From positions 1-34,889 of the IMG/VR virus record IMGVR_UViG_3300010885_038484: 34,889 bases of DNA; one strand, written 5' to 3'. This DNA comes from a virus. Below the pieces are notes generated by a model. The model made no database searches and was not told the DNA's origin. It was given only the letters and a program-made list of their open reading frames with translations. Positions within the stretch are counted from its first letter, which is position 1. Every line of letters begins with the position of its first letter. Both the position numbers and the translations under genes were made by a program. Shown in pieces: positions 11,856-27,285 of this stretch.

Positions 11856-13052
11856 ATGGCTAATTTAAGAGATTTAATTGATTATACAAACAAAGCAGGT
11901 ATTCAGACATCCCAATCATTGGGAGCAGTAGTTGCACCTCCAGCATCTCCAAATGCTGGTATTGCTGCCACTGCATTTGCTCCAAGTTTTCCCGGATCTG
12001 CATATAAGCAGATTAAGTATCGTGGCAATCATTGCTGTGGTGCATATTCTTGCTATTGGGAATGTTTTATGTGGAGACCTCCTATGGGGACCACATTCCT
12101 TAAGTTTGAAATCTGGGGCGGCGGCGGCAGTGGTGCTGGTGGATGCTGTTGTGGATGGGGAACTCCTGGTGGGTCTGGCGCATATGCATATAAGTGTATT
12201 TGTAGTGCAACTGATTTAGGTGGTTGTGTTTATGAATTCTGTATTGCAGGATCATCTTGTATGCCACCAGATGTCTATGGAGTTAAGGGATATAAAACTT
12301 TTGCCGTTGGATATGGATTAGATAATTTCTGTGCCGAAGGAGGACTTGGTGGGAACTGGAATTGTCAATATTCCCCTCCATGGACTATGACATGTTTTTG
12401 TGATTATCCAGTAATATGTGGAGATGGAGCAAGACTTAATACCAATGCTTATTGTACTGCCACTAATGGAGTATTCCTTAATGTATGTGATTGTCTGACT
12501 CCAGGGCAATTGTACGGAACTGGTATGATTAGTCCATATGACATGTATGATAATTGCCGTTTCTCTTGTGGTAGACTGGGAACTGGATATTATGATTTAG
12601 TTGGTGCTGGAAATACATTTGGATCTGGTGGCAAAAGAGTTAGACAAAATCATACTTTAAATCCTTGCTATGGTGGTGTTTGTTATATTTGTACGTTCTG
12701 TGCTCCATATTTTGGTGCAGATGGAGGTTCTCGTGGAATTCCTGGTGGTCTTGGATCTCCTTGCAACCATGATGCAAGTGATTATTGTATGATTCAACAA
12801 TATTTGCCTTATCCTGGCGGATTAATTAATACTCGTGGTGGATGGGTAACTCAGAGAACCTGTGGAATTCTTCAATGTAGTGCAGTATATAATGCTCTAC
12901 CTGGAGAATACTTTGGATATACTTCAACCACAGATAGTGACGGTTATGGTGCAATTCCTGGAATGGGTGGAAGATCTACTTTTGCTTATTGTGGTTATTG
13001 TTATTGTGGTGGCCCTGGATCTGGCGGGCAACTTATCATTACTTACGGTTAA
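11856..13052 (+). CDS. Gly/Cys-rich virion adhesin-like protein A (398 aa, 33 Cys)
   Basis: This is the first of three tandem paralogues. It has 33 cysteines in 398 residues (about 8%), many in CC, CCC or CxC arrangements. The N-terminus begins MANLRDL, as in its paralogues. Around residue 86 is the shared core FEIWGGGGSGAGGCCC, followed by PGGSGAYAYK; near the middle are NFCAEGG and YFGADGG; the C-terminus ends GGQLIITYG. The FEIWGGGG...GAG pattern resembles the glycine-rich domain of many phage tail fibres, but the cysteine load is unusual. There is no signal peptide, and cysteine spacing does not match a known zinc or haem family by eye. A beta/polyglycine adhesin stabilised by disulfides or metal is the best inference. 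AGGAG at 11845-11849 supports the start. Confidence 0.85.
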   Translation: MANLRDLIDYTNKAGIQTSQSLGAVVAPPASPNAGIAATAFAPSFPGSAYKQIKYRGNHCCGAYSCYWECFMWRPPMGTTFLKFEIWGGGGSGAGGCCCGWGTPGGSGAYAYKCICSATDLGGCVYEFCIAGSSCMPPDVYGVKGYKTFAVGYGLDNFCAEGGLGGNWNCQYSPPWTMTCFCDYPVICGDGARLNTNAYCTATNGVFLNVCDCLTPGQLYGTGMISPYDMYDNCRFSCGRLGTGYYDLVGAGNTFGSGGKRVRQNHTLNPCYGGVCYICTFCAPYFGADGGSRGIPGGLGSPCNHDASDYCMIQQYLPYPGGLINTRGGWVTQRTCGILQCSAVYNALPGEYFGYTSTTDSDGYGAIPGMGGRSTFAYCGYCYCGGPGSGGQLIITYG

Positions 13053-13063
13053 GGAGAAGAACA

Positions 13064-14023
13064 ATGTCAGATTTAAGAAAACTTTTAAATACAGAAAACC
13101 AATCTGAACTTCAAAAACGTACTTGTGGATTTCAGTCCACACAGTGGGGAAGTGGTTGGGGCAATGTTCTTCTTGATGGATTCACTAATTATTATCCAGG
13201 ATATTGCTGGACGGATAATTGTGATAGTAATTATCGTCAATGGTGTCCTGGTTTTTGTGTAATTCCTGGAGTAACCACCGTCCAGTTTGAAATCTGGGGT
13301 GGTGGTGGAAGTGGTGCCGGTGCCTGCTGCTGCCAACAAGGTTCTCCAGGGGGATCTGGTGCATATGCAATGAAGACTCTTTGTGCTAGCGATCTTGGAG
13401 TTGATACTCTTGGTGGTATGTGCTATTTGCTTTTTATTGCACCTCCTACTTGTTGTTCTGCTTGTTGTGTGGGACTTCAGGGGTGTAAATCTTATATTAC
13501 TGGTTGTGGTCTCTCTAACTTCTGTGCTGACGGAGGAATGCCAGGAAGAACTTGTTGCTATATCTTCCATGATTCTCATGGAGCAAACTTAACTGGAACA
13601 TGGGGACCTGGAGGAACTGGTAAGAGTGCATGGAACTCTGCTGGATGCTATACTCTTGATCCAGTTTCCGGAACCTGTTATGCTTGTGATTGTGCCTGTT
13701 ACTATGGTGCAGACTTTGGTGTTGCAGGTAGACCTGGTTGGTTCCGTGTAGATTGTATCTGCGGTAACAATTGCTTTATAAGAACTGGTCTTGCACAGCC
13801 GGGTGGATTTAGAGACAAATGCGTTAGATATGTTATTCATAGAAATGAAGGCAATGCTTGTGGAAATCAAAGAAATTCTTGTGTAATGGGTGAGTGGTCT
13901 GGTGGAGTTCAATGTGGTAATGGTATGAGAGGGCAAGGAGCTCCATCTGCAACATCATGTGCTGGTGGTTGCTGCTACGGATGGAGGGGCAGCGCAGGTC
14001 TCATTAGAATTACCTACAGATAA
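13064..14023 (+). CDS. Gly/Cys-rich virion adhesin-like protein B (319 aa, 34 Cys)
   Basis: The start is ATG 13064, chosen because AAGGAG lies at 13051-13056 and the resulting N-terminus (MSDLRKLLNTEN) aligns with its two paralogues; the frame is open further upstream but overlaps the previous gene. The product has 34 cysteines in 319 residues (about 11%), the densest of the three. The shared core FEIWGGGGSGAGACCC lies near residue 82, with PGGSGAYAMK, NFCADGG, YYGADFG and a C-terminal AGGCCYGWRGSAGLIRITY. Only 11 bp separate it from protein A. The role is inferred as for protein A; copy-to-copy variation lies mainly in the N-terminal third and the loops between shared motifs. Confidence 0.85.
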   Translation: MSDLRKLLNTENQSELQKRTCGFQSTQWGSGWGNVLLDGFTNYYPGYCWTDNCDSNYRQWCPGFCVIPGVTTVQFEIWGGGGSGAGACCCQQGSPGGSGAYAMKTLCASDLGVDTLGGMCYLLFIAPPTCCSACCVGLQGCKSYITGCGLSNFCADGGMPGRTCCYIFHDSHGANLTGTWGPGGTGKSAWNSAGCYTLDPVSGTCYACDCACYYGADFGVAGRPGWFRVDCICGNNCFIRTGLAQPGGFRDKCVRYVIHRNEGNACGNQRNSCVMGEWSGGVQCGNGMRGQGAPSATSCAGGCCYGWRGSAGLIRITYR

Positions 14024-14026
14024 ATA
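14019..14026 (+). promoter_or_regulatory. T4-type late promoter box (GATAAATA)
   Basis: GATAAATA overlaps the stop codon of protein B and lies 22 bp before the ATG of protein C, giving the third paralogue its own possible late start. Confidence 0.5.
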
Positions 14027-14048
14027 CTAATACAGGGATATTTAAGAA

Positions 14049-15020
14049 ATGGCAAACCTTAGGACTTTATTAGGAACATCGGATACTAATTTTACCGGTA
14101 TTCATTCTGGTGGCATTGGTAGACTGAGAGAAGGTCAAGTAACCTACTTCATGGCTCATATGTGTGGTAATTGTAACTCATATGAGTTGACATGTTGCCA
14201 AGCTCCTGCTGGTGACTATACATCGGGTTACAATAACTTTAGTTACTGCTGCTGGAAAGTTCCTTCCTATCCTGGTGTAGGAACAACCGTAATCACCTTC
14301 GAAATCTGGGGTGGCGGTGGTGGTGGCGCAGGCGCTTGCTGCTGTGCTTATGGTATTCCTGGTGGATCTGGTGCATATGCATATAAGTCGGTCATTGGAG
14401 TCACATCTGGAACTGTCTATAACTTCTGCATTGGATCCCCTGCTTGCAGAACGTCAGATCCAGCAGGAACTGATGGTTGTAAGACATATGTAACTGGTAT
14501 TGGACTAACTAACTTCTGTGCTAATGGTGGGTTCAAAGGTTGCAGTTACTGCTCTTGCTGCTTAACTGGTGCGGGATTATGCCACTTTAAGACAGCAATT
14601 GGCAATACCGATAGACCAGTTGATGGTTATGGTGGATATCAAGATGTTGTTGGTTTAAATACGTCTTGTGTTGGATGCTGTGCTTTATACTACGGTGCTG
14701 ATGGTGGCGCTGTTGGTGTTCCTGGTGCATATCAATTAAACTGTACCATGACTAGACTATGGAATAAGTTCTTTATCCCATTTCCTGGTGGACTTGTAAA
14801 TCAGAAAGGTGGACATGTTGTTTGGCAACAATGTGATAATTCGACTTGTGGATTTAATGCTCAGTGTAATGCAGCAGCCCAACTTGGATTTGGCGGGCAA
14901 TCGGAACTTAATTATGTTCCTGGTTTGGGTGGTCCTTCTGCTGTTGTTTGTGCTGGTGGTTGCTGCTGTGGAACTCAGGGATGGGCTGGTGCGGTTCGTG
15001 TAACCGTTCGCTACGTCTAA
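14049..15020 (+). CDS. Gly/Cys-rich virion adhesin-like protein C (323 aa, 29 Cys)
   Basis: This is the third paralogue: MANLRTLLGTSD at the N-terminus, 29 cysteines in 323 residues (9%), the core FEIWGGGGGGAGACCC near residue 84, PGGSGAYAYK, NFCANGG, YYGADGG, and the end motif AGGCCCGTQGWAGAVRVTV. The order of shared motifs is the same as in A and B, so the three arose by tandem duplication, but they have diverged strongly between motifs. A possible late promoter (GATAAATA) sits just upstream. A role in the outer tail-fibre or adhesin apparatus is inferred from its place among fibre genes. Confidence 0.85.
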   Translation: MANLRTLLGTSDTNFTGIHSGGIGRLREGQVTYFMAHMCGNCNSYELTCCQAPAGDYTSGYNNFSYCCWKVPSYPGVGTTVITFEIWGGGGGGAGACCCAYGIPGGSGAYAYKSVIGVTSGTVYNFCIGSPACRTSDPAGTDGCKTYVTGIGLTNFCANGGFKGCSYCSCCLTGAGLCHFKTAIGNTDRPVDGYGGYQDVVGLNTSCVGCCALYYGADGGAVGVPGAYQLNCTMTRLWNKFFIPFPGGLVNQKGGHVVWQQCDNSTCGFNAQCNAAAQLGFGGQSELNYVPGLGGPSAVVCAGGCCCGTQGWAGAVRVTVRYV

Positions 15021-15062: not shown

Positions 15063-15917
15063 ATGGCTATTATCAAAAAGAAATTTACTTATGATTTACC
15101 AGATGAATATCTGGCACAAACAAAAGATCTTGGTTTGAAAGGTGAGTGGGACTATGAAGGTCCTGATAAAATCTACGTTCATGTGAGTAAGGCAACAAAT
15201 CTCATGATATATCATTGTGGTTGTCAGATGCATGATGATAGCAGAACTCAGGAAGAAAACGACCATTCTATGGACGTTTATACTGGACTTGATGCCTATC
15301 ATGCTCCAATTGAGTTTGATAAAGATCCTGTCTTACTTTCTTGCTTCTTCCCTAAGATTGCTAGTGATATGCATCAAAAGGAATATAAGCATCCTGTAAC
15401 TGGAGAGGTTTTTTACAGCAGACCGGATCCAATTATGCCAGATCATACTATTCAACTTGATCAGGTTGAGTATGATCTTGAAAAAAAAGAATGGAAACCA
15501 TATCCAATGAGACAACCTCATATTATAAGAGAGGATTTTGAGGCAGCCCATCGTACTATTTTAGCAAATCATACTGCAACCGAAACAGAAAACTTTACTT
15601 CATCGCAAAAGAAAAAGTGGTCTGATTTCATTAAGGAATTTGAAAATGTTCCTACAAAGTTTGCTGATTATATGGATACACCTTGGATGGTTCCATTTCC
15701 AATAGATCCAAGAATGGATGAAAAGTGGGGAGTTGAAAATGATGGATTGATTCCCGAAACAGAAATTACTTCAAATCCTGATGCTGGCGAAATTGCACCT
15801 TTAGAACTTCCATTTGAAGATAATAGAGGATATGATTATGATGCACTTGCTGAAGCAGAATTAACTGAGGAGCAAAAGATGGCACCTGAACCTCCTGATG
15901 AGTTTAAGATTTCCTGA
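15063..15917 (+). CDS. Unrecognised protein following the adhesin array, possibly fibre assembly or virion protein
   Basis: The product is a 284-aa acidic protein, not recognised. The N-terminus is MAIIKKKFTYDLPDEYL. The middle is rich in Pro, Asp and Tyr (HPVTGEVFYSRPDP, then IQLDQVEYDLEKKEWK). Residues 190-235 (KKKWSDFIKEFENVP) have the 'R/KxxWxxYRxxLRxiP'-like look of small tail-fibre assembly chaperones, but the match is weak. The C-terminus is very acidic. The gene is the last before a strong terminator and sits directly after the three Cys/Gly-rich proteins, so a role in their assembly is possible. That is inference from position only. Confidence 0.75.
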   Translation: MAIIKKKFTYDLPDEYLAQTKDLGLKGEWDYEGPDKIYVHVSKATNLMIYHCGCQMHDDSRTQEENDHSMDVYTGLDAYHAPIEFDKDPVLLSCFFPKIASDMHQKEYKHPVTGEVFYSRPDPIMPDHTIQLDQVEYDLEKKEWKPYPMRQPHIIREDFEAAHRTILANHTATETENFTSSQKKKWSDFIKEFENVPTKFADYMDTPWMVPFPIDPRMDEKWGVENDGLIPETEITSNPDAGEIAPLELPFEDNRGYDYDALAEAELTEEQKMAPEPPDEFKIS

Positions 15918-15940
15918 TAGAGCGTAGATAATACTACCGA

Positions 15941-15963
15941 GGGGGTCAGAAATGACCCCCTTT
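15941..15963 (+). terminator. Rho-independent terminator with GAAA tetraloop
   Basis: A perfect 8-bp stem GGGGGTCA / TGACCCCC closes a GAAA loop at 15949-15952 and is followed by TTTACTTTT. It separates the adhesin block from the sugar cassette. Confidence 0.9.
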
Positions 15964-15969
15964 ACTTTT

Positions 15970-15977
15970 GCTAAATA
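15970..15977 (+). promoter_or_regulatory. Late-promoter-like box (GCTAAATA) for the sugar cassette
   Basis: GCTAAATA differs from TATAAATA at two bases and lies immediately after the terminator, 39 bp before ATG 16017. It is the only promoter-like box in this gap, so the five-gene cassette is probably expressed late, with the virion genes. Confidence 0.4.
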
Positions 15978-16016
15978 GCAACGTATAATTAAAACATTAT
16001 CCCCTTTGAGGCGAGT

Positions 16017-17183
16017 ATGAGACCAAAAGCATTTTTTGTGAATGGCGGAGCGGGGCGTGTAGTTTGCTCTATTCCAGCATTTGAAAAATATCAAGAAGAA
16101 AATCCTGATGAAGATTTCCTGATTGTCTGTGAAGGCGGAACAGATTTCTTTAAAGGTCATGCAACACTTTATCCAAGAGTTTACGATCATTGGCATAAAA
16201 ATCTCTTCAGGGATAAACTGAAGGATATGGATATTGTAACGACAGAACCATATAGAATCTGGGAATACTATAATCAAAAGTGTAATCTGTCCCAGGCTTT
16301 TGATATTCAAATCAACGGTAAAGGTATTAGAGAACTTCCAAAACCAACCATTAAACTTTCCAGACAAGAATATATTAGTGGTAAGTTTGTCTTAGAAGAT
16401 GTAAGACAAAAAACGAAAAAAGATAAGATAGTTATTTTTCAACCATTTGGTCGTGGAACTCAAGTGATGGGTAATTTTATCACTGATTCCAGTGGTAGAA
16501 GTTTTGAAATGGCGAATGTAGTTGGACTTGTTAAAAAATTGCAGAGAAAGTATGCTGTGATTTATATGGGAGAAATTGAAATTGATTTCCAAAAAGAAGG
16601 ATGCAAAGATCCTGTTGCTACTCCAAGAGGCATTGATTTGAGAGCATGGGCTGGTATTATTGGTGAGTCTGATCTTTTCCTTGGATGTGATTCTGTAGGA
16701 CAACATCTTGCATATTCCCTGGATATTCCTTCGGTAGTCGTAGTGGGTGCTACATGTAAAGAAAATATTTCTTATCCAAATTGTGATAAGTTTGAAGTTC
16801 TTGATATGGGTGAGGGTCTGAGAATCTATGATCCTATTCGCATTACAATGGATGAGGTAACTCAACGTGTTAATGATGGAATCATGGCAATGAATGATAA
16901 GATTGAAGATGTTATCATTCAATCTATCGACAAATTGATGAACAAATATTATGTCAAGAAGAATGAAAATATTGTTCTTCCAACGATGGATCAACAGCAA
17001 CAATCTTGCGGTATGCCTCCAGCAGCGCCAGTTGGTAGTTTGACCGGAGCACCAGCACCAGAAGTTGTACTTTCTTCAAATAAGCAAAGAAAGAGTGCTA
17101 TTGACGAATTGATGTCCGAGGCAGTAAAATCTTCTAATGGTACTAAAAAGTCAACAGGATTTCTTGATACGATTCAAAAATAA
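16017..17183 (+). CDS. GT9/heptosyltransferase-like glycosyltransferase
   Basis: The product is 388 aa. The N-terminus FFVNGGAGRVVCSIPAFEKY matches the 'G.iGD.v...P....' opening of family 9 (GT-B) glycosyltransferases such as the LPS heptosyltransferases. The second Rossmann half has IVIFQPFGRG near residue 142 and DLFLGCDSVGQHLAYSLDIP near 219-238, the counterpart of the 'd.vig.DSg..HlA.alg.p.v.lfG.t' nucleotide-sugar site. Residues after about 325 form an added low-complexity tail (Gln run, Pro/Ala-rich, then Ser/Lys-rich) that is not part of the fold. It is the first gene of a cassette with heptose-nucleotide genes, so ADP- or NDP-heptose is the likely donor. The acceptor is unknown: virion protein or host envelope glycan. 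Confidence 0.8.
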   Translation: MRPKAFFVNGGAGRVVCSIPAFEKYQEENPDEDFLIVCEGGTDFFKGHATLYPRVYDHWHKNLFRDKLKDMDIVTTEPYRIWEYYNQKCNLSQAFDIQINGKGIRELPKPTIKLSRQEYISGKFVLEDVRQKTKKDKIVIFQPFGRGTQVMGNFITDSSGRSFEMANVVGLVKKLQRKYAVIYMGEIEIDFQKEGCKDPVATPRGIDLRAWAGIIGESDLFLGCDSVGQHLAYSLDIPSVVVVGATCKENISYPNCDKFEVLDMGEGLRIYDPIRITMDEVTQRVNDGIMAMNDKIEDVIIQSIDKLMNKYYVKKNENIVLPTMDQQQQSCGMPPAAPVGSLTGAPAPEVVLSSNKQRKSAIDELMSEAVKSSNGTKKSTGFLDTIQK

Positions 17184-17199
17184 TTAAAGGTAATTTTAT

Positions 17200-18885
17200 A
17201 TGACGATTATTGCATCAATTGCCCGTGGTCACAACGGGAGCACAACTTTAATGAAGGATGGTGAGATCATCTTTTATCTTGAGGAAGAACGCCTTTCTAA
17301 GATGAAGTATGATGGGTCACCTCTTCTTGGTCTGGCAAAAGTATTTGACTATGTAGATCATATCGATCACCTTGTAGTTTGCCATACTCATCGTCATGGT
17401 CCTCAATTAGATTGGACTGGTGAAGATCTATATCATGGTTGGGTGAGGAAACTTGCTAAGAAAAAGTTTGATTTTAAAGTTCATTTTATTGATCTAATTC
17501 ACCATGAAATGCACTCTGCATGTGGTTTTTATAACTCAGGTTTTGAAACTGCCGCATGTGTAATTGCAGATGGTGCAGGTAGTTTCCTTCAGTATGAAAA
17601 TATTGATGAGGTTCTGTTTGAATTTGAAACTATCTTCAAGGCTTCTTATCCCAAAACTTTTGATGTAGTTTATAAGCATATTGGTACTAAAGCAGCAATT
17701 GGTTGCAACCAACTTGATGCTGGAGTATTTGTTACTGAGTATCCTGGTCATACAAAAATGTATGAGGCAGTAACAGAGTATTGTGGTTTCCCTGCGATTG
17801 AGGCAGGTAAACTGATGGGTCTTGCTCCTTATGGTAAACCAAATGAAGACCTTCCTAAGTTCTTCAGTAATGGTTGGGGAAATCGTGAGTTGATTATTCC
17901 CACATATCCAAATGCTGCTAAGATTAATGTTGGCAGATATCCTATTCTTATTAAGGATGTTGAGAATCATCAAGAAGGTCAGTATACTGATATTCAAAAG
18001 GATATGGCATATGCGATTCAGGAAGCAACTGAGAATCGTATGATCGAACTGATCCGCAAGGCTCATGAAGAAACTGGTGAAACAAACATCGTTATTTGTG
18101 GTGGTTATGGACTGAACTGTGTTGCAAACTATAAGTATCTTCAGGCATTCCCCGATCTGAATATCTATTGTGAACCAATTTCTCATGATGGCGGCACTTC
18201 AATCGGGGGTGCTAACTACATCTGGCACGATGTTTCTGCTAAGAAAGAGGTTAAGAAGCAAGCATCTGTTTACTACGGTCCTCAGTACGATCCTACTACA
18301 TACGAAGATGCTCTTAATGGACTTGAAGTAACTGATACTTCTTATGATGAAGTTGCAAAACTGATTCGTGAAGGCAATATTGTTACCATATATCAGGGTC
18401 GCTCAGAAGGTGGTCCTCGTGCTCTGGGTAATCGTTCTATTCTCTTTGATCCTACCATTAAGGATGGCAAGGACATTGTGAATGCGGTCAAGCATCGTGA
18501 ATGGTTCCGTCCTTTTGCTTGTTCTATTAAGCAAGATAAAGTTAATGATTGGTTTGATCTGGCTGGTCGTGATGAAACTCCTCACATGATGTATGCTGTC
18601 AAGTGTCATTCTGGAGTTGAAGAAAAGATTCCTTCAGTGATTCACGTTGATGGAACCTGCCGCATTCAGACAGTAACTACAGAACAGAACGAGCACTACT
18701 ATAATCTGATTGATGCCTTTGAGGAACTGAGTGAAGTTCCCATTCTGTTTAATACAAGCTTCAATCTTGGTGGAGATCCTCTGGTTGAAACTGTTGAAGA
18801 TGGTGTTAATACCTTGAAGAGGTGTGATATTGAGTATATGTATCTTCCTGAAATTCAGAAACTTGTTTATATTCCTAACGAATGA
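17200..18885 (+). CDS. NodU/CmcH-family O-carbamoyltransferase
   Basis: The product is 561 aa, the normal length for this family, which transfers a carbamoyl group from carbamoyl phosphate, through carbamoyl-adenylate, to a sugar or antibiotic hydroxyl. The N-terminal ASKHA-like domain starts IIASIARGHNGSTTLMKDG and has a HHEMH metal-site motif at residues 101-105 and DGAGS near 124. The C-terminal YrdC-like domain has EGGPRALGNRSILFDP near 403 and HREWFRPFA. The two-domain order and motifs are as in TobZ and NodU. It overlaps the next gene by four bases (ATGA), so translation is coupled. In Pseudomonas aeruginosa the LPS-core heptose carries a carbamoyl group, so with heptose genes adjacent, heptose is an attractive acceptor here, but this is inference. 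Confidence 0.93.
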   Translation: MTIIASIARGHNGSTTLMKDGEIIFYLEEERLSKMKYDGSPLLGLAKVFDYVDHIDHLVVCHTHRHGPQLDWTGEDLYHGWVRKLAKKKFDFKVHFIDLIHHEMHSACGFYNSGFETAACVIADGAGSFLQYENIDEVLFEFETIFKASYPKTFDVVYKHIGTKAAIGCNQLDAGVFVTEYPGHTKMYEAVTEYCGFPAIEAGKLMGLAPYGKPNEDLPKFFSNGWGNRELIIPTYPNAAKINVGRYPILIKDVENHQEGQYTDIQKDMAYAIQEATENRMIELIRKAHEETGETNIVICGGYGLNCVANYKYLQAFPDLNIYCEPISHDGGTSIGGANYIWHDVSAKKEVKKQASVYYGPQYDPTTYEDALNGLEVTDTSYDEVAKLIREGNIVTIYQGRSEGGPRALGNRSILFDPTIKDGKDIVNAVKHREWFRPFACSIKQDKVNDWFDLAGRDETPHMMYAVKCHSGVEEKIPSVIHVDGTCRIQTVTTEQNEHYYNLIDAFEELSEVPILFNTSFNLGGDPLVETVEDGVNTLKRCDIEYMYLPEIQKLVYIPNE

Positions 18886-19283
18886 AAAAAGTTTTTGTAA
18901 ATGGCACTTTTGATTTACTTCATTCGGGTCATATACATCTCCTAAACTATGCAAAAAGTTTAGGAGACTTTTTGTATGTGGCAATTGATACTGATGAAAG
19001 GGTCAGAGAAAAGAAGGGTTCATCAAGACCAGTTTATAGTTTAGAAGAAAGAATCTTTCATTTACAAAATCTTAAACCCGTAGATGTGGTTCTTTCTTTT
19101 GGAACTGACGAACAGTTAGAAGATCTTGTAAAAATTACAAAACCTGATATAATGGTTGTAGGATCTGATTGGAAAGGGAAACCTATTATTGGTTCCCAGT
19201 ACGCTAAAAAATTTGTATTTTTTGATCGAATAGAAGAATATGCCTCAACAAAAACAATACAAAGTATTATTGATCGGAGATAG
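18882..19283 (+). CDS. rfaE2: Heptose-1-phosphate nucleotidyltransferase (RfaE2/HldE C-terminal domain type)
   Basis: The product is 133 aa, a single nucleotidyltransferase domain. The active-site motif GTFDLLHSGH is at residues 8-17 and the C-terminal STKTIQSII matches the ST-T-x-I-I signature. GSSRPVYSLEERI and MVVGSDWKGKPIIGS align by eye with the C-terminal domain of E. coli HldE, which couples D-glycero-beta-D-manno-heptose 1-phosphate with ATP to give ADP-heptose. Glycerol-3-phosphate cytidylyltransferases share the first motif, but the kinase next door favours heptose. It overlaps the carbamoyltransferase by 4 bp and the kinase by 44 bp, so translation is probably coupled. The two HldE activities are thus split into separate overlapping genes with the transferase first, the reverse of the domain order in E. 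coli HldE. Confidence 0.85.
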   Translation: MKKVFVNGTFDLLHSGHIHLLNYAKSLGDFLYVAIDTDERVREKKGSSRPVYSLEERIFHLQNLKPVDVVLSFGTDEQLEDLVKITKPDIMVVGSDWKGKPIIGSQYAKKFVFFDRIEEYASTKTIQSIIDRR

Positions 19284-20001
19284 TTGTGAGGACGAATACA
19301 TCTATGGAAAGTGTGAGCGTCTAAGTCCTGAAGCTCCAGTACCTGTAATGAAGTTTTCAAAGACAGAAGTGAAGGCAGGTATGGCAGGTAATGTATGCCT
19401 CAATCTTCAGGCATTTGATATGCATATTACTTTTCTTACAAATTCTGAGAAGATTGTAAAGACACGGATGATTGATGAAAAATCTAATCAACAACTTCTT
19501 CGTGTGGATGTTGAAGATACTGTGAAACCTCTTCACCTACCAGTGTCAACAGATAGCTTTGATGCTGTTGTTATTTCTGATTATAACAAAGGATATGTGA
19601 CGGATAAAAAGTTGTTTGAAATTGTGAGTGAATGCAAAGTTCCTATTTTTATTGATAGTAAAAAGCAATATCTACCAAACAAGAAAAATTGCTTTGTAAA
19701 AATTAATGATATTGAATATTCTAAATTGAGTCAAGATTGTCAAATAGATAATCTAATAGTAACCAAGGGTGGTGAGGGATGCCTATATAATAACACTTTG
19801 TATCCTGCAGAAAAAGTAAAGGTATATGATGTAGCAGGTGCTGGTGATACCTTCCTTGCTGCTTTAGTTTATGGGTATCTTCATTATGATAACATTGAAA
19901 AATCAATTATACTTGCAAACAAGGCAGCCGCAACCGCAGTTCAAAATCAGGGAACTTATGTATTAACGGAGGATGATGTGAATGGATTCTTGCAAGATTA
20001 A
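19240..20001 (+). CDS. rfaE1: Heptose-7-phosphate kinase (RfaE1/HldE N-terminal domain type, compact)
   Basis: The product is a 253-aa PfkB/ribokinase-fold protein. Near residue 10 is LLIGDSCEDEYIYG followed by ERLSPEAPVPV, the hallmark of the HldE kinase domain; NQQLLRVDVED matches its substrate-lid region; GAGDTF at 200-205 gives the catalytic base D203. The enzyme would phosphorylate heptose 7-phosphate at C1. It is about 60 residues shorter than the usual 315-aa kinase domain, with a deletion after AFDMHITFL where the lid and part of the first subdomain normally lie. Whether it is still active is uncertain, but all core motifs remain. It starts inside the nucleotidyltransferase gene (44-bp overlap) and overlaps the cupin gene by 20 bp. 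Confidence 0.83.
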   Translation: MPQQKQYKVLLIGDSCEDEYIYGKCERLSPEAPVPVMKFSKTEVKAGMAGNVCLNLQAFDMHITFLTNSEKIVKTRMIDEKSNQQLLRVDVEDTVKPLHLPVSTDSFDAVVISDYNKGYVTDKKLFEIVSECKVPIFIDSKKQYLPNKKNCFVKINDIEYSKLSQDCQIDNLIVTKGGEGCLYNNTLYPAEKVKVYDVAGAGDTFLAALVYGYLHYDNIEKSIILANKAAATAVQNQGTYVLTEDDVNGFLQD

Positions 20002-20344
20002 GATGGTCCCCAAGGGATGGGGATTTGAGAAATGGATTGTAAATAATGAAGAGTATTGTGGAAAACTTCTTTACTTTGTGAAGGGCGGTAAATGCTCTTT
20101 CCATTATCACATTTTAAAGGATGAAACTTTCTATATTCAAAGTGGAAAGATTCTTCTTAAGTATAGTACTTCTGATAGTATTGAAGAATCTCAAGAAATA
20201 ATCCTCTCCCAAGGTGATAGGTTTCACGTTGAGAGAGGATTGAGACATCAAATGATTGCTCTGGAAGATACTGAGATGTTTGAGTTCTCAACAAAGCATT
20301 ATGATAGTGATAGTATTAGGGTTATTCCTGGAGATACTGTTTGA
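19982..20344 (+). CDS. Cupin-fold protein, possible sugar-phosphate isomerase
   Basis: The product is 120 aa, a single cupin barrel. The first cupin motif is complete (G36, H41, H43, E48, G55, in GGKCSFHYHILKDETFYIQS), and the second has GDRFHVERGLRHQM (H89), so a His/His/Glu/His metal site is preserved. An N-terminal KGWGFEKWIVN resembles the type-II mannose-6-phosphate isomerase cupins. It ends the + strand sugar operon, with its 3' end overlapping the convergent epimerase gene by 23 bp. A classical GmhA sedoheptulose-7-phosphate isomerase is absent from the cassette, so this cupin could supply an isomerase or epimerase step, but substrate assignment is speculative. Confidence 0.8.
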   Translation: MDSCKIKMVPKGWGFEKWIVNNEEYCGKLLYFVKGGKCSFHYHILKDETFYIQSGKILLKYSTSDSIEESQEIILSQGDRFHVERGLRHQMIALEDTEMFEFSTKHYDSDSIRVIPGDTV

Positions 20345-21110
20345 CAGTTTTAAATTTGTAATCACCCAACCAATTCATATCAGCACAAGTATATGATTGG
20401 TATTTGCCAATTAAATGATCTGGAAAGGGAATGGTATTGATTTTACCATTCTCTTTTTTTGTAACCAATTCTGCTACCTCTTGAAATGATATTGGATTTG
20501 CTGTGCCAATATCATAGATACCACTTGGAGCATCGTTATTTAAAACAATATCCACTACGTCATCAACGCAAACAAAGTCACGAAGAAACTTATCAGATCC
20601 ATCAAAAAGATTCAGTTCTCCAGTTTCCCTGATTTGTTTTGTAAACTTACTAATAGGACTGGCCTGATCGCCTTTATGATCTTCTCCATTACCATAGACA
20701 TTAAAGTACCTGAATCCTTGAATCAAAGGAAACTTATTAATGTTATCTAATACACAATAATCTACTTGCAGTTTTGAAATTGCATACTGATTCAAGGGAT
20801 TAATTTGCCCTTGAGTATTTCCATATACTGAAGCAGATGATGCATACTTAAATGGAATTTGATATTCCATTGCATACTCTAAAAGAAACAATGTGAATGC
20901 AACATTGTTGTGGTATATGGTGCGAATATTTTTTTCGGTTGTAGATGAGATGGCACCTTGATGAAGAATGAGTTCTACTTTATCCCACTCATCAAAGTCT
21001 CTAAGAAACCTGAAGGCATCATCTTTTTCAATTAAAATCACATCTTTATCTTCCAATTTCTTTAAAAAATTTTGTCCGATAAATCCAGCGTGTCCTGTTA
21101 ATACAATCAT
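20322..21110 (-). CDS. hldD: ADP-heptose 6-epimerase-like NAD(P)-dependent epimerase (HldD type)
   Basis: The product is a 262-aa extended short-chain dehydrogenase/reductase. Its Rossmann motif TGHAGFIG lies at residues 5-12. GAISSTTE near 52-59 is the characteristic HldD signature, SSASVYG supplies the catalytic Ser, Y109xxxK113 is the catalytic pair, and FRYFNVYG...EDHKGDQAS and FLRDFVCVDDV are HldD-type. It would convert the D-glycero to the L-glycero form of ADP-heptose. At 262 aa it is somewhat shorter than the 310-aa E. coli enzyme. It runs opposite to its partner genes, overlaps the cupin 3' end by 23 bp, and starts 39 bp from the divergent 360-aa virion gene. No good ribosome site precedes ATG 21110. 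Confidence 0.88.
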   Translation of the reverse strand: MIVLTGHAGFIGQNFLKKLEDKDVILIEKDDAFRFLRDFDEWDKVELILHQGAISSTTEKNIRTIYHNNVAFTLFLLEYAMEYQIPFKYASSASVYGNTQGQINPLNQYAISKLQVDYCVLDNINKFPLIQGFRYFNVYGNGEDHKGDQASPISKFTKQIRETGELNLFDGSDKFLRDFVCVDDVVDIVLNNDAPSGIYDIGTANPISFQEVAELVTKKENGKINTIPFPDHLIGKYQSYTCADMNWLGDYKFKTVKQYLQE

Positions 21111-21149: not shown

Positions 21150-22232
21150 ATGGCATTTGGCCTGCTCGCTTCAACTATACCGATTATAAACAAGGATACA
21201 TCACTGTATACTTCTTCGGTCGGTAATTTGGTTGGAGGTAAAATTTCCATATCCCATAAAAATTATAATCCTGTCAAGGTTCGTGTTGCGATCTCCACGA
21301 ATGGTGTAGATCAGGACTACTTACATTATAACAGGATTATCAATTATGGGGAAACTTTTGAAACTGACACTATTTATTTTGGCAACGGACAAAGAATTCT
21401 TGTCAGATCAACTGATCCTGATACCAACTTTGTTTTGTATGGAGAGACTTCAACTGATTCTACAAACTCTGGATTTTTATCTTCGGTTCAAACTGCAGGT
21501 AAAACTGAGTTAGTATTATATACTGCTCCTGTTGGATATAATGTTACTGCTACAGTTGTTGCATGTAATCTTAATTCTGTTCCTGCTGTAGCAAGACTTG
21601 GAATTACAACAAATTCTTTGGTTGGATTTACTACATCTCAGTTTCTTGAGTATGATGCTTCCATAGAACCAGGGCAAACTTATGTCAGAAAGGATCTTAA
21701 ATTATCGCCAGGTCAGACATTAGTTTGTTCCTCAAGCGATTATTCTTATGTGAACTACGTTGTTTATGGCATCAAATCGCCAACGATTGCTCCAGTAGTT
21801 GATGCAACTTTTGCAACATTAACTGCCAATAAATTGGTAATTCAGAATGGTGGTGTTGTTACTGGGGTTTTGACAGCAACATCATTTGATGGTGCTGTAG
21901 ACGCTGCAAATCTAAGTGGACAGATTTCTACATCTGTAACTGGAGCAAACATTGTAATCCAAAGCAAATACCTTTCAGTTGGCACTGCAACAACAGTAAA
22001 CTTTAATAGTAATATTTCTGCTGCAAATATTAATGGATCAGCAGTAGTTGATCTTGACCCCAATATTAGCATTACTTCCGCATCTATTTCTGGACCTTTA
22101 AGTGTTGGGTCCACTATTGATGCTCTAAATAATAAAGTTGTTAACGTAGGAACTGCAACATCAAATTATGATGCTGCAAACAAAAAGTATGTAGACTCTA
22201 GAGCGTCTGCATTTGCTATTGCACTATCTTAA
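21150..22232 (+). CDS. Virion structural protein, 360 aa, two beta-sandwich modules plus fibre-end domain
   Basis: The product is 360 aa. Residues about 15-95 and 110-210 are two copies of the beta module seen alone in the 105-aa protein at 11144 (LHYNRIINYGETFETDTIY and FLEYDASIEPGQTYVRKDL are equivalent strands). Residues 225-300 hold a Gly/Ala/Ser-rich linker with VLTATSFDGAVDAANLSG, typical of phage fibre shafts. The C-terminus has VNVGTATSNYDAANKKYVDS, the common 'a..DAanKkYVD' module at the end of phage fibres. It resumes the structural region interrupted by the sugar cassette. A tail-fibre or whisker role is inferred. Confidence 0.85.
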   Translation: MAFGLLASTIPIINKDTSLYTSSVGNLVGGKISISHKNYNPVKVRVAISTNGVDQDYLHYNRIINYGETFETDTIYFGNGQRILVRSTDPDTNFVLYGETSTDSTNSGFLSSVQTAGKTELVLYTAPVGYNVTATVVACNLNSVPAVARLGITTNSLVGFTTSQFLEYDASIEPGQTYVRKDLKLSPGQTLVCSSSDYSYVNYVVYGIKSPTIAPVVDATFATLTANKLVIQNGGVVTGVLTATSFDGAVDAANLSGQISTSVTGANIVIQSKYLSVGTATTVNFNSNISAANINGSAVVDLDPNISITSASISGPLSVGSTIDALNNKVVNVGTATSNYDAANKKYVDSRASAFAIALS

Positions 22233-22257: not shown

Positions 22258-25200
22258 ATGGCTAAAAGACAGATTAGGGATTATGTTTTTACTCCTGGTG
22301 TATCTGGAGTTGGTAATATTAAAATACTGGATAAAATTCAGTTGAATCAGATTCTTCTGATTACAAATACAACTTCTAATGATATTCTATATAATTTTTC
22401 TGATCCTACAAATAAGGTTTCAGTGTCCTTTACTGATTCTTATGATGCTGCGTTTCCGTATGCATCATCAGCATCAAATGGCGTTACAACTATTATATTT
22501 TTATTTGACACTCGTAGTTACAGTTCCACAGATTCTATATCAATCTTTGTTGAATCTTTAGAACAAAGAATGAGACCTTATGATTTCGGTACTGATGCTA
22601 TCGAAAGAATGAGGGTTGCAACTCCGCAATCCATGATTGATGCTGACTTTGAGTATGGTTTGCAACCAACGAAATGGCAAACTATAGATTTATTGCGTAA
22701 TTATCCAAGCATATATGAAATTGCTGGATCTGATATCTCACTCTCTTCAGTTGTAACTGATGCAAGTTTTTCTACAGGGGGAATTGGATATTCTCTCATT
22801 AGTGTTACTTCAATTGAGACTCATGGATTAAGTGTAGGATCTCCTTTTCGTATTACTGGATTGAATCCTGCAACTACTGGAGCTCCCAGAGCAGAAGGTT
22901 CATTTATTGTTGAAAGTATTATAAGCTCAAATACTTTTACATATTTTGCTAAGGGTAAGGTAGGTCTAAACCAGGGAGATTCCTTATTATCAACATATAC
23001 TCAATTCAGAAAAGCAGGATTCTATACATCTGCAAGTATTGGAAACCCAACATATAGTGTGCTTTCAAATATAAGTAGCGGAACTTTCAATACAAAATTT
23101 ACTACAGCAACCGCATCACCAAGAATTGCTTATAGTGGAGTAATTCCTGTAGGAGTAGGATTTGCAGTAACTATTTCCAATGTTCCTACAGGCACTCAGA
23201 TCACTGGTATTTCATCAACATCTGCAACAACTACTTTTGCTGATGATGTAGCACCTCCAACAAATACAATTAAAGTTACCAGCACGAATAATATTCAGGT
23301 TGGATCAGCAGTTGATGACGGCACAAATACTGCAACATTCGTTACAAATATTGATGGAAATATTCTAACGCTATCTCGTCCATACACAGTATCTGCTGTT
23401 GGTGCTGCATCTACACTTGGTATTGTCACAACAACAGGAAGTAATTTTGGTCTTGGATCTGGTGCAATATTTAATGTAAATCGCACAAACGGAAGATACA
23501 CTCCATCAATTGTAAATGCTGGAGTTGGGTATACTGTAAATGACAGAGTAATTGTACCTGGATCTTCTCTTGATGGAGCATCTCCAACCAATAATCTTGC
23601 AATTAAGATCCAAGGAGTTAGTCAAGTTGGAGGGATTACAACATTTACTACAGCAAAATATTTTGCTCCATATGGTGAAGCAGCAATATCTCAAAATCAA
23701 TATAAATTTAACACATCTTCTCTTCTTTTGAATACAACTTCTGGAGGAGCGGATTATATTAGATCTAATTCAAATCCAGACTTTTTAATTGGAACTAACG
23801 ATTTTACGGTAGAATTTTGGATATATCGTAACCGACTTGGTGTAACTGAAACGATTTTTGATATGAGGAATTTCCTCACTGAATATTCACCAGTATTAAA
23901 AATTACGTCAAACAATACTCTTGCATATTATTTGAATGGAGTAACTGTAATCAATAGTTCTAATACTGTTCTTACTGGTTCTTGGAATCATATTGCACTT
24001 TCCAGAACAAGTAATGTTACAAGATTGTATATTAACGGAACTCAAGAGAGTTCTAATCTGGCAGACTCTTCAAATTATCCTGAAAGAGGTATCACTATCG
24101 GTGCTTCATATACTGGAACTGAAGGATCTTATTGCTATATTGATGACTTTAGATTAACGATTGGATATTCAAGATATACTGGATCATCTTTCTCAATTCC
24201 AACATCACCATTTGTTACTGATGTATATACCAGAGCTCTTCTTCATTTTAATGGTAGGGGTGGAGACACTGATTTTGCAGATGAAACATATGGAACAGCA
24301 ATTTCAAATACCCAAACATTCTATAACACAACTGGAGTTACAACTGGTTCTGGATATGGGGCAGTATTTGATGTAATTAGAGTCGGTGGTGCTACAACAG
24401 TATATACTGTCAATTTTACCGGAGAAAATAATTCTACTGGACTTAATTATTCGGTTTCTGATATCATTTTAATTGATGGATCTTTGGTTGGTGGAAATTC
24501 AGTCACCAATGATTTAACAATTACGGTGGATAATATAGATATTGATGGTGCAATTGTTGGATTCACTCCAATCGGAATCTCTTCAAGTGGCAACTTAACA
24601 TACTCAAATAGATCTGTCGTTAGTTCTGGATCAAGTGCAACTGTTAATATTTCAAAGGCAACTGGATCTTATGCAGTATCCATTGCAAATTCTGGATCTG
24701 GATATTATCCTGGATATATCCTTAAAGTTCCTGGAACATCTCTTGGAGGAACTTCTCCAACAAACGATTTAAATGTCACTGTTGTATCTGTAAATTTAGA
24801 TTCCCCAGTTGTTGGTACAATTTCTTCCATATCCTATTCAGGAACGGCTACTCCAGGAACAGCAGTTACTTTCTTCCCTTCAATCAGTCTTTCTGAAATT
24901 TCCACTGGTGTCATTTCTGATAATACAACAGCACAATATAGTTCACTTGCAAGAATTCGAGTTCAATTCGATACTAATCATGGATTGGTTCCAGGATCTC
25001 CAGTTCTTTCATCAATTGTTTCTGCGGGAGTTGGGCATAGTTTAGCATCTGGACCTTTCATAATTGATTCTGTTCCGGCACTAAATCAAATTGTTTTCAC
25101 CGCAAAACGACCTGGAACTATTGTTTCTTCTGGACTTGCAGGAACTGTTTATCCAAGACCTGATTGTTATTACATCCATAGACCATTTGATGGTGGGGTT

Positions 25201-27285
25201 CAATTGGGCACTGGTGGTCCTGCTCATGGAGCTCAAGCAGTTCGTCAATCTAAAAAATATATTCGTTATCAATCTGGTAAGGGTATCATGTATACCACTG
25301 GTGCTCTCTTTGCACCATCATATGACCTTAGATCTGTAACTTCATCTGGAATTTCTACTGGTAGTGTAATTACTTGTATTACTGATGATACAGAGCACGG
25401 GTTACAAGCAGGTGCTGAAATTCAATTGAGTGGTTTGGAAACTTCTGGGTATACTGGAACATATACTGTGAATAGCATTGTTAATGAATATACCTTTACA
25501 GTCCTTTCAAGAGGAACTCTGGGATCAACGACTCCAGTATTGGGAAGACCTCCTCAAATTTCTCTTTATAAGTGGAAGGGTGCTACTGTAAGGGCAGGTG
25601 CATTTGATGATCAGAATGGTATCTTCTGGCAATATGATGGGGTAAATCTGGCTGTAGGAATGAGATCTGCAACTTTCCAACTTGCCGGAACAATTTCTGC
25701 TGACCCAGATTCAAATTCAATTACTGGTGTTAATACAAGATTTGTAGATCAGTTAGTAATTGGTGATAGAATAGTAATTAGAGGAATGACACATGTTGTC
25801 ACTTCGATTACAAATAGTACTGCAATTACTGTCAACCCAGACTATAGGGGAGTAAGTTCAATTACTGGGGCAAAGGCTTCTCTGGTAAGAGATACGATTA
25901 TCCCTCAAAGTCAGTGGAACCTTGATCGTGCAGATGGAACTGGAAAAAGTGGATATGAAATTCAAATTAATAAGATGCAGATGATTGGATTCCAGTACAC
26001 TTGGTATGGTGCTGGATTTATTGACTGGATGCTTCGTGGTCCTGATGGAAATTATTTGTTTATCCATAGACTGAAAAATAATAATAGAAATACTGAAGCA
26101 TATATGAGATCTGGAAACCTTCCAGTTCGTTATGAAGTTATTAATGAAGGTGCAAAATCCAAAATAACTTCGGATATTTCTTCTTCAGCGTCTACAATGA
26201 CTCTTGAAGATGCTACTCTATATCCATCCTCAGGAACTCTATATTTGGATAATGAAATAGTCAATTACACAACAAAGACTGGAAATATTTTAGGTGGATT
26301 GACAAGAGGAGCAATATTCTCAAATTATTCTGGTGGATCTACAAGAACTTATACTGCTGGAACTGCAGCAGGGCATAATTCGGGAACTGGTGCTATTTTG
26401 ATTGCAAATACAGCAACTCCTGTTATTAGTCACTGGGGTTCTGCGTTCCTTACAGATGGAATGTTTGATACTGACCGTGGATATGTATTTAACTATCAGT
26501 ATGTTGGTGGCACAATTACTACAGTAAAATCAACTGCTTTCTTGATTCGTCTTGCACCTACAGTTTCAAACGCTATTATTGGTGACCTTGGACAAAGAGA
26601 ATTGATTAACCGAGCACAGTTGCTTCTCAAATCTCTGGAATTCACTCCAACTAGTGGTGCTTCTTCTCAGGCAGTTGTTATTGAAGGTGTATTGAATCCA
26701 TCAAATTATCCAACAAATCCATCAACAGTCAATTGGTTCGGTCTGAGTTCTCAAGGTGCAGGGGGTCAACCCTCATTTGCACAAATTGCTAACGCATCTA
26801 ACATCACCTGGGCTGGTGGAGCAGCATCTTATACTGCATCAACATCTGTAACTCAAAACTACTTTACTCAGTATCAAATTTTTGACAAAACTGCAACTGC
26901 AAACGTTCGTATTGGTCACTTCGTTTCTGGTACTGGGGTCCCTGGTGGTACGCGAGTTATTAACATTTTCCAATATGATGCAAATAACAACTACATTCAG
27001 TTCTCAAACTCTGTTAACTCAGGATCTGCTGGTTCAATTAGTTATACCTTTACTGCAAACACTCTGTCTGCTGCACCTGGAGAAACTGTTTTCTCTTTCG
27101 TAGGTACTGCTGTTGACAAATCAACTATTGATCTTGCTGAACTTAAGGAATTGAACAACACTCCTATTGGTGGTAGAGGAACATTCCCTAATGGACCTGA
27201 CGTTCTTGCAATTAACGTTTACCTCACAACAGGATCTAATATCGGCGGAAACTTTGTTCTCCGCTGGTCAGAAGCACAGGCATAA
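22258..27285 (+). CDS. Giant virion protein with LamG-like domain (1675 aa)
   Basis: The product is 1675 aa, with the start supported by AGGAGA in the 25-bp gap. The recognisable parts are as follows. THGLSVGSPFRITG-type modules lie near residue 190 and again near 905 and 1050. Three copies of a 'G.GY...D.[IV]...G..L.G.SPTNDL' module lie near 412-450, 695-755 and 797-845. A LamG/concanavalin-like domain lies at about 482-655 (FTVEFWIYRNRLG, WNHIALSRTSNVTRLYING), a fold that binds glycans. A conserved central block starts near 973 (IHRPFDGGVQLGTGG, SKKYIRYQSGKGIMYTTG), and a beta module near 1300-1375 is also found in the 1180-aa protein. There is no signal peptide. It is probably a major tail-fibre or baseplate-associated adhesin. 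Confidence 0.88.
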   Translation: MAKRQIRDYVFTPGVSGVGNIKILDKIQLNQILLITNTTSNDILYNFSDPTNKVSVSFTDSYDAAFPYASSASNGVTTIIFLFDTRSYSSTDSISIFVESLEQRMRPYDFGTDAIERMRVATPQSMIDADFEYGLQPTKWQTIDLLRNYPSIYEIAGSDISLSSVVTDASFSTGGIGYSLISVTSIETHGLSVGSPFRITGLNPATTGAPRAEGSFIVESIISSNTFTYFAKGKVGLNQGDSLLSTYTQFRKAGFYTSASIGNPTYSVLSNISSGTFNTKFTTATASPRIAYSGVIPVGVGFAVTISNVPTGTQITGISSTSATTTFADDVAPPTNTIKVTSTNNIQVGSAVDDGTNTATFVTNIDGNILTLSRPYTVSAVGAASTLGIVTTTGSNFGLGSGAIFNVNRTNGRYTPSIVNAGVGYTVNDRVIVPGSSLDGASPTNNLAIKIQGVSQVGGITTFTTAKYFAPYGEAAISQNQYKFNTSSLLLNTTSGGADYIRSNSNPDFLIGTNDFTVEFWIYRNRLGVTETIFDMRNFLTEYSPVLKITSNNTLAYYLNGVTVINSSNTVLTGSWNHIALSRTSNVTRLYINGTQESSNLADSSNYPERGITIGASYTGTEGSYCYIDDFRLTIGYSRYTGSSFSIPTSPFVTDVYTRALLHFNGRGGDTDFADETYGTAISNTQTFYNTTGVTTGSGYGAVFDVIRVGGATTVYTVNFTGENNSTGLNYSVSDIILIDGSLVGGNSVTNDLTITVDNIDIDGAIVGFTPIGISSSGNLTYSNRSVVSSGSSATVNISKATGSYAVSIANSGSGYYPGYILKVPGTSLGGTSPTNDLNVTVVSVNLDSPVVGTISSISYSGTATPGTAVTFFPSISLSEISTGVISDNTTAQYSSLARIRVQFDTNHGLVPGSPVLSSIVSAGVGHSLASGPFIIDSVPALNQIVFTAKRPGTIVSSGLAGTVYPRPDCYYIHRPFDGGVQLGTGGPAHGAQAVRQSKKYIRYQSGKGIMYTTGALFAPSYDLRSVTSSGISTGSVITCITDDTEHGLQAGAEIQLSGLETSGYTGTYTVNSIVNEYTFTVLSRGTLGSTTPVLGRPPQISLYKWKGATVRAGAFDDQNGIFWQYDGVNLAVGMRSATFQLAGTISADPDSNSITGVNTRFVDQLVIGDRIVIRGMTHVVTSITNSTAITVNPDYRGVSSITGAKASLVRDTIIPQSQWNLDRADGTGKSGYEIQINKMQMIGFQYTWYGAGFIDWMLRGPDGNYLFIHRLKNNNRNTEAYMRSGNLPVRYEVINEGAKSKITSDISSSASTMTLEDATLYPSSGTLYLDNEIVNYTTKTGNILGGLTRGAIFSNYSGGSTRTYTAGTAAGHNSGTGAILIANTATPVISHWGSAFLTDGMFDTDRGYVFNYQYVGGTITTVKSTAFLIRLAPTVSNAIIGDLGQRELINRAQLLLKSLEFTPTSGASSQAVVIEGVLNPSNYPTNPSTVNWFGLSSQGAGGQPSFAQIANASNITWAGGAASYTASTSVTQNYFTQYQIFDKTATANVRIGHFVSGTGVPGGTRVINIFQYDANNNYIQFSNSVNSGSAGSISYTFTANTLSAAPGETVFSFVGTAVDKSTIDLAELKELNNTPIGGRGTFPNGPDVLAINVYLTTGSNIGGNFVLRWSEAQA

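Follow-up and report, generated by a model that had tools for sequence, protein, structure and literature searches.

A cyanophage gene cassette predicted to supply activated heptose, with a cupin as its probable isomerase

Clustered 'LPS genes' (LPS, lipopolysaccharide) have been noted in cyanophages, without a pathway being proposed for them (Sullivan et al., 2010; PMC3037559). Here we describe a cassette of this kind at positions 16017-21110 of a virus record of 34,889 nucleotides (IMG/VR IMGVR_UViG_3300010885_038484, positions 1 to 34,889; this whole stretch is hereafter called the window), which is probably a genome fragment. The window also encodes ThyX, PhoH and a ferredoxin-dependent bilin reductase (PF05996; 27819-28472, minus strand), a gene content in keeping with a T4-like cyanophage. 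The cassette consists of six open reading frames, confirmed at the positions given by a first-pass annotation of the same DNA, for a GT9-fold glycosyltransferase-like protein (GT), a NodU/TobZ-type O-carbamoyltransferase (CT), an RfaE2/HldC-type nucleotidyltransferase (NT), a compact HldA/RfaE1-type kinase (KIN), a cupin and an HldD-type epimerase.

Comparison with described systems and the proposed pathway

The gene families of the cassette are those of the LPS clusters of P-SSM2, S-SM2 and S-SSM7 (T4-GCs 304-308; Sullivan et al., 2010), and in P-SSM2 and S-SSM7 these genes likewise come after GT (T4-GC 302) and CT (T4-GC 303). The HAD-type protein of those clusters, which the window does not have, bears the label phosphoheptose isomerase; for the cupin the label is cysteine dioxygenase or nucleotidyltransferase. 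The cassette itself is therefore already known and it is the step-by-step pathway that is new; in the open-licence literature searched we found neither the cupin as GmhA, nor the HAD protein as GmhB, nor a division of the genes into a core pair, GT and CT, and a heptose module that is present whole or not at all.

The known ADP-heptose pathway and the cassette have in common the kinase, nucleotidyltransferase and epimerase families together with their catalytic residues. They differ in that HldE is here split in two, in that the cassette has a cupin and not a SIS-type GmhA, and in the phosphatase, which in relatives of the cassette is an EcbF/BcbF-like HAD protein of about 107 residues. The LPS-core heptose of Pseudomonas aeruginosa is carbamoylated (WapO), and the cassette, which has a member of the family of the TobZ/NodU carbamoyltransferases next to its heptose genes, may be analogous. 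The LPS of Synechococcus strains WH8102 and CC9311 contains neither heptose nor 3-deoxy-D-manno-octulosonic acid (PMC4515613), in agreement with what the first-pass annotation had said of marine Synechococcus, so that a phage would need its own heptose supply in such hosts.

We favour, with rather modest confidence, the reading that the cassette makes ADP-L-glycero-beta-D-manno-heptose in a host without heptose, for a carbamoylated glycan in the context of tail-fibre assembly. The cupin, as an aldose-ketose isomerase in the place of GmhA, would convert host sedoheptulose 7-phosphate to heptose 7-phosphate, which KIN would phosphorylate to heptose 1,7-bisphosphate. The HAD phosphatase would then release heptose 1-phosphate in most relatives, a step that may here fall to the host or to an unseen phage enzyme, after which the RfaE2-type NT would form ADP-D,D-heptose and the HldD-type enzyme would epimerise it to ADP-L,D-heptose. 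The GT9-fold transferase would move the heptose to an acceptor, and the NodU/TobZ-type enzyme would carbamoylate the transferred glycan. What the computation shows is the identity and conserved order of the genes, the active-site residues, the GT9 fold and the co-occurrence; each of the reactions is inferred, and so are the acceptor, the sugar that it receives and whether transfer precedes carbamoylation.

The activation enzymes and the cupin

The product of the NT gene (18882-19283, plus strand) has as its best NCBIfam profile TIGR02199 (RfaE domain II; 1e-31), with the glycerol-3-phosphate cytidylyltransferase model at 2e-20, and it keeps the HxGH motif as HSGH. Its score lies below the naming cut-off of 181.5 bits. 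From its motif and profile it is predicted to be a D-glycero-D-manno-heptose 1-phosphate nucleotidyltransferase that would make ADP-heptose. The adjacent gene (19240-20001, plus strand) encodes a putative heptose 7-phosphate kinase, for which the best profile is TIGR02198 (RfaE domain I; 2e-45; 155 bits compared with an NCBI naming cut-off of 345) and the closest match in the PDB is the heptose kinase 4e84 (2e-29). The motifs RLSPEAPVPV (SPEAPVPV), SDYNKG and GAGD are retained, and the protein is about 30 residues shorter than the reference, with the gap in its middle. Because of this shorter length and the score below the cut-off we name it only HldA-like. The 80 closest cellular loci listed for KIN were examined for a close cellular source; they proved to hold HldE/HldA relatives from bacteria or archaea that share about 25-35% identity with it, so that none was accepted as such a source, and no cupin or small HAD gene of the cassette type lay near the kinase in any of these loci.

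The epimerase gene (20322-21110, minus strand) matches TIGR02197 (HldD) at 3e-65, with 220 bits compared with a naming cut-off of 274.6, and HldD (1eq2) is its closest match in the PDB. Residues Y109 and K146 correspond to the catalytic Y140 and K178 of Escherichia coli HldD and are conserved in 28/28 and 26/28 homologues respectively; the residue matching K144 of the E. coli enzyme is likewise retained. The best profiles of all three proteins are thus those of ADP-heptose enzymes, as the first-pass annotation had proposed, and when we considered whether the profiles would instead place the kinase and the nucleotidyltransferase with a non-heptose sugar the assignment stayed with heptose.

That annotation had also suggested that the cupin (19982-20344, plus strand) could stand in for a missing step, and the evidence now points specifically to GmhA. 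The Pfam match is to Cupin_2 (7e-8), and a profile search recovered D-lyxose isomerase and L-ribose isomerase sequences. The predicted structure has a predicted local distance difference test score (pLDDT) of 93.7, and its best Foldseek matches are D-lyxose isomerases (24% identity). The discriminating support for its function is found at the level of residues, not of the fold. In the D-lyxose isomerase of Thermofilum (TsLI), ligand and metal are held by K62, H75, H77, K86, E88, H143, E156 and D163 (PMC8378251), and these correspond, in order, to K28, H41, H43, K46, E48, H89, E101 and D108 of the phage cupin. The first seven are invariant in 31/31 homologues, and position 108 has D in 26 of them, E in three and V in two. 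The active-site residues and the barrel fold are thus common to the phage protein and the cupin-type D-lyxose isomerases (TsLI, 7nzo; Bacillus subtilis, 2y0o; E. coli Z5688), whereas the phage protein has 120 residues rather than about 170-230 and its predicted substrate is a 7-phosphate. D-lyxose isomerases catalyse, in both directions, the conversion of a ketose to a lyxo/manno-type aldose, and the step from sedoheptulose 7-phosphate to D-glycero-D-manno-heptose 7-phosphate has the same stereochemistry.

The distribution of the cupin is informative as well. Within the phage collection 31 cyanophage records contain KIN and every one of them also has the cupin, although several of them are near-identical isolates and the independent lineages are fewer than 31. 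In the four remaining records with a cupin (Bellamy twice, SynMITS9220M01 and AG-345-E15) it is flanked by HddA-like and HddC-like GDP-heptose genes. The isomerase and phosphatase steps alone are common to the ADP- and GDP-heptose routes, and occurrence with the genes of both is the pattern expected of a GmhA equivalent. A search for SIS-type GmhA (SIS_2 domain) found none in 11 of the 12 phage records searched, nor was there a SIS domain gene among the cassette proteins of the window; the exception, SynMITS9220M01, gave a weak SIS match, and its SIS-type GmhA lies within a second heptose cluster. Because it combines an isomerase active site and co-occurrence with KIN with this absence of GmhA, the cupin is probably a non-orthologous GmhA, by which we propose that it acts like GmhA and not that it belongs to the GmhA family. 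Separately, members of phrog_7851, labelled 'cysteine dioxygenase', are here cupins with a sugar-isomerase active site, and the label looks wrong.

The first-pass annotation had further advised looking for gmhA and gmhB elsewhere; beyond the result for GmhA just given, a GmhB-like protein was present in most relatives, not in the window. The gene, for a protein of about 107 residues, sits between KIN and the cupin gene, and its database name is phosphoheptose isomerase. The protein has HAD-like motifs (DIDGT, TARG, GKP and IDDKG) and matches the EcbF/BcbF capsule phosphatases as well as the PDB entries 9iqw and 1xpj, and it is the likely GmhB. In SynMITS9220M01 a single gene (L208:1470-2222), flanked by the SIS-type GmhA and an epimerase, encodes a HAD phosphatase domain (residues 1-104) fused to an RfaE2-type NT domain (113-236), and this fusion ties the small HAD protein to the nucleotidyltransferase step. 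The members of phrog_1238 seen here, under the label 'phosphoheptose isomerase', are HAD-type proteins; this label, too, looks wrong.

The transferase pair, gene order and genomic setting

GT (phrog_8954; 16017-17183, plus strand) was recognised as a GT9-fold protein from its predicted structure. Its sequence matches heptosyltransferase models weakly (5e-4) and its profile found no match in the PDB. The AlphaFold model (mean pLDDT 80.9, with a low-confidence tail at residues 330-388) aligns with GT9 proteins with Z-scores of 17-23 (22.9 to 3tov, 19.9 to WaaF, 19.1 to TibC and 18.0 to WaaC) and with other GT-B proteins at about 12. The overall fold and the donor motif are common to the phage protein, WaaC/WaaF and the protein heptosyltransferase TibC, at identities of about 10-16%: D225-S-V-G-Q-H230 aligns with the D-[ST]-G-x-x-H of cellular GT9 proteins, and this motif and many further positions are nearly or fully invariant in the phage homologues. 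CT (17200-18885, plus strand) has both the N- and the C-terminal domain (PF02543 and PF16861) in one chain, with Carbam_trans_C at 3e-57, and resembles TobZ (2e-47), which bears out its earlier description as a NodU-type carbamoyltransferase.

The same arrangement of genes is found in S-CAM1/3, P-SSM2/5, S-SSM7 and Sf-FS3 as well as in dozens of viral contigs. This bears out the co-occurrence in related cyanophages for which the first-pass annotation had suggested a search, and conservation across so many phages argues that the cassette is not a product of chance. We surveyed 63 related loci in which the sequence continues for 6 kb or more downstream of GT; some of these overlap on one contig, and the counts are not independent. 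GT and CT occur together in all 63. The heptose module behaves as all-or-none: NT, KIN, cupin and HldD are present in 44/63 loci, and 37 of these 44 also have the HAD gene. The pair without any of NT, KIN, cupin and HldD is found in 18/63, and one further locus is truncated. Twelve contigs were searched whole, eleven of them free of heptose genes at the locus and one a cassette-bearing control; 9/11 of the former had no KIN, and the other 2/11 had a distant kinase elsewhere and an HldD relative nearby. Either the GT-CT pair is a core to which the heptose module adds a supply of donor, or the pair uses another donor elsewhere.

Some relatives carry further genes at this locus. In S-SSM7 the cassette (L008, 7245-13879) is expanded with a 2-oxoglutarate/Fe(II) (2OG-Fe(II)) oxygenase, a second carbamoyltransferase and a protein of the tryptophan-halogenase family, and a relative of the latter adjoins GT-CT in two other contigs (L092 and L097). 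In Sf-FS3 (L006, 5330-14611) four 2OG-Fe(II) oxygenase-like genes are interleaved with the cassette, and hydroxylation by their products might create acceptor groups. In phages lacking the heptose module, GT can be separated from CT by genes for proteins of about 300 residues (L107:10999-12822, L103:10935-11834 and L097:11003-11923); four of these proteins were tested and gave no Pfam or PHROG match.

Within the window the five plus-strand genes, from GT to the cupin, have ends that overlap or nearly abut. The HldD gene converges on the cupin gene from the minus strand, so that at most five cassette genes could be co-transcribed; the six genes are adjacent, as originally described, but they do not form one operon. 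The late-type promoter put forward for them was not confirmed, as the CTATAAATA late motif, with up to one mismatch allowed, is missing from 15918-16016 upstream of GT. This interval contains a strong intrinsic-terminator-like hairpin with a T-rich tail (15939-15962, plus strand; stem-loop GAGGGGGTCA-GAAA-TGACCCCCTT), located 3' of the preceding gene. A pattern match also gave a sigma-70-like promoter candidate, TTTACT-17-TATAAT (15961-15989, plus strand), the TATAAT of which is retained in several relatives, but promoter-like sites before GT are no more frequent than in shuffled sequence.

Genes of the fibre region lie upstream of the cassette and a tail fibre gene (phrog_11338; 21150-22232, plus strand) lies directly downstream; in 55/58 loci of the survey a conserved tail-region gene lay no more than 5 kb from GT, on either strand. 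The upstream neighbour (phrog_9740; 15063-15917, plus strand), of unassigned function, is conserved beside the cassette, both in S-CAM1/3 and in most of the related contigs, and is possibly a fibre-associated protein. Before it, at 11856-15020 (plus strand), are three tandem phrog_4205 paralogues with a cysteine content of 8-10% and a glycine content of 17-19%, a composition seen in no other window protein examined; these are possibly fibre-tip adhesins and candidate glycan acceptors. A tail fibre at 7537-11079 (plus strand) carries three CBM_5_12 carbohydrate-binding modules, and a large virion protein (22258-27285, plus strand) contains a lectin-like Laminin_G_3 domain and weakly matches an endosialidase beta-barrel.

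Alternative readings and the acceptor

Several observations weigh against an ADP-heptose pathway feeding a heptosyltransferase. KIN, NT and the epimerase all score below the NCBI naming cut-offs, although this is what divergent, shortened phage proteins might give. Many other cupins superpose on the cupin model equally well, and D-lyxose isomerases use non-phosphorylated sugars. A HAD gene of the relatives' type is missing both from the window and from the available contigs of its nearest relatives (L009, L012, L015 and L080), so that the third step would here have to fall to a host enzyme or to one encoded at another place in the phage genome. The 18 loci with GT and CT and no heptose genes suggest that the donor of GT may not be heptose. 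Lastly, the catalytic aspartate of the 'GD' pair, which is D110 in TibC (PMC4358343), is replaced in GT by Arg14 after the first strand, and this arginine is invariant in 40/40 phage homologues. For this reason we term the protein GT9-fold and not a heptosyltransferase; of the earlier assignment as a GT9/heptosyltransferase-like enzyme, the fold stands and the canonical catalytic residue does not.

The foremost rival, which we judge to be possible but rather unlikely, is that the heptose goes onto the host envelope (LPS or another surface glycan) during infection, where it would prevent superinfection or change how the cells are grazed. O-antigen conversion is a strategy known from phages, and in other cyanophages heptose genes lie with more than one glycosyltransferase gene around hli, pstS or phoA and not near tail genes. 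It is also the published view of the LPS genes of P-SSM2 (PMC2984593). On the other side, this type of cassette lies in the fibre region of nearly all relatives, whichever strand it is on, and none of the cassette genes was recognised as coding for a membrane glycosyltransferase, a flippase or a polymerase.

That GT is not an active heptosyltransferase at all, but uses another donor or is a GT9-derived protein with a binding or assembly role and no catalysis, with the small-molecule pathway alone being conventional, seems improbable. The invariant arginine and the loci without heptose genes speak for it, as do the GT9-fold chains of the chloroplast NDH-PSI supercomplex that appear among the structural matches of GT; taken with the arginine, these chains make a non-catalytic role possible. 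It fits poorly with the near-invariance of the D-S-V-G-Q-H motif and of so many other positions, and with the fact that it is exactly the GT-CT pair that the heptose module joins. A pathway that yields a related but different sugar, whether a hexose or a different or modified heptose, seems quite improbable. The scores under the curated cut-offs, the resemblance of NT to glycerol-3-phosphate cytidylyltransferases and the oxygenases or halogenase added in some relatives would suit it; but three consecutive enzymes match heptose models best, the catalytic residues of HldD are kept, and the cupin is found with the genes of two heptose pathways that are unrelated to each other.

It is very unlikely that CT acts, apart from the heptose genes, on nucleotides or on DNA containing 5-hydroxymethylcytosine. 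A phage 5-hydroxymethylcytosine carbamoyltransferase of the same family is proven (PMC8670742), but the PF00303 companion (dCMP hydroxymethylase/thymidylate synthase) was found in 0/13 related records, the thymidylate enzyme of the window is ThyX, and CT accompanies GT at every locus surveyed; DNA carbamoylation was therefore rejected. Finally, that the cassette is functionless stuffer DNA, a possibility raised by Sullivan et al. (PMC3037559), is hardly credible given open reading frames that are intact and overlapping, a module that is all-or-none, and active-site residues that are invariant in divergent homologues.

Returning to the ADP-heptose reading, the acceptor is somewhat more likely to be a virion fibre or adhesin protein than the host surface. 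Virion decoration is plausible and is modestly favoured by the location in the fibre region; the enzymology is indecisive. In its fullest form, which we offer tentatively and with more doubt than belief, the proposal is that cyanophages have evolved a cupin that isomerises sedoheptulose 7-phosphate and is no relative of GmhA, have combined it with a mini-HAD phosphatase in a nearly self-contained ADP-heptose pathway for hosts that lack heptose, and use this pathway, with a GT9-fold enzyme whose catalytic base is swapped, to place heptose and carbamoyl groups on tail-fibre proteins of their own. The cassette of this marine cyanophage would hold most of an activated-heptose pathway that the hosts seem to lack, with one step apparently carried out by a non-textbook enzyme, and two of its enzymes probably attach and decorate the heptose sugar.

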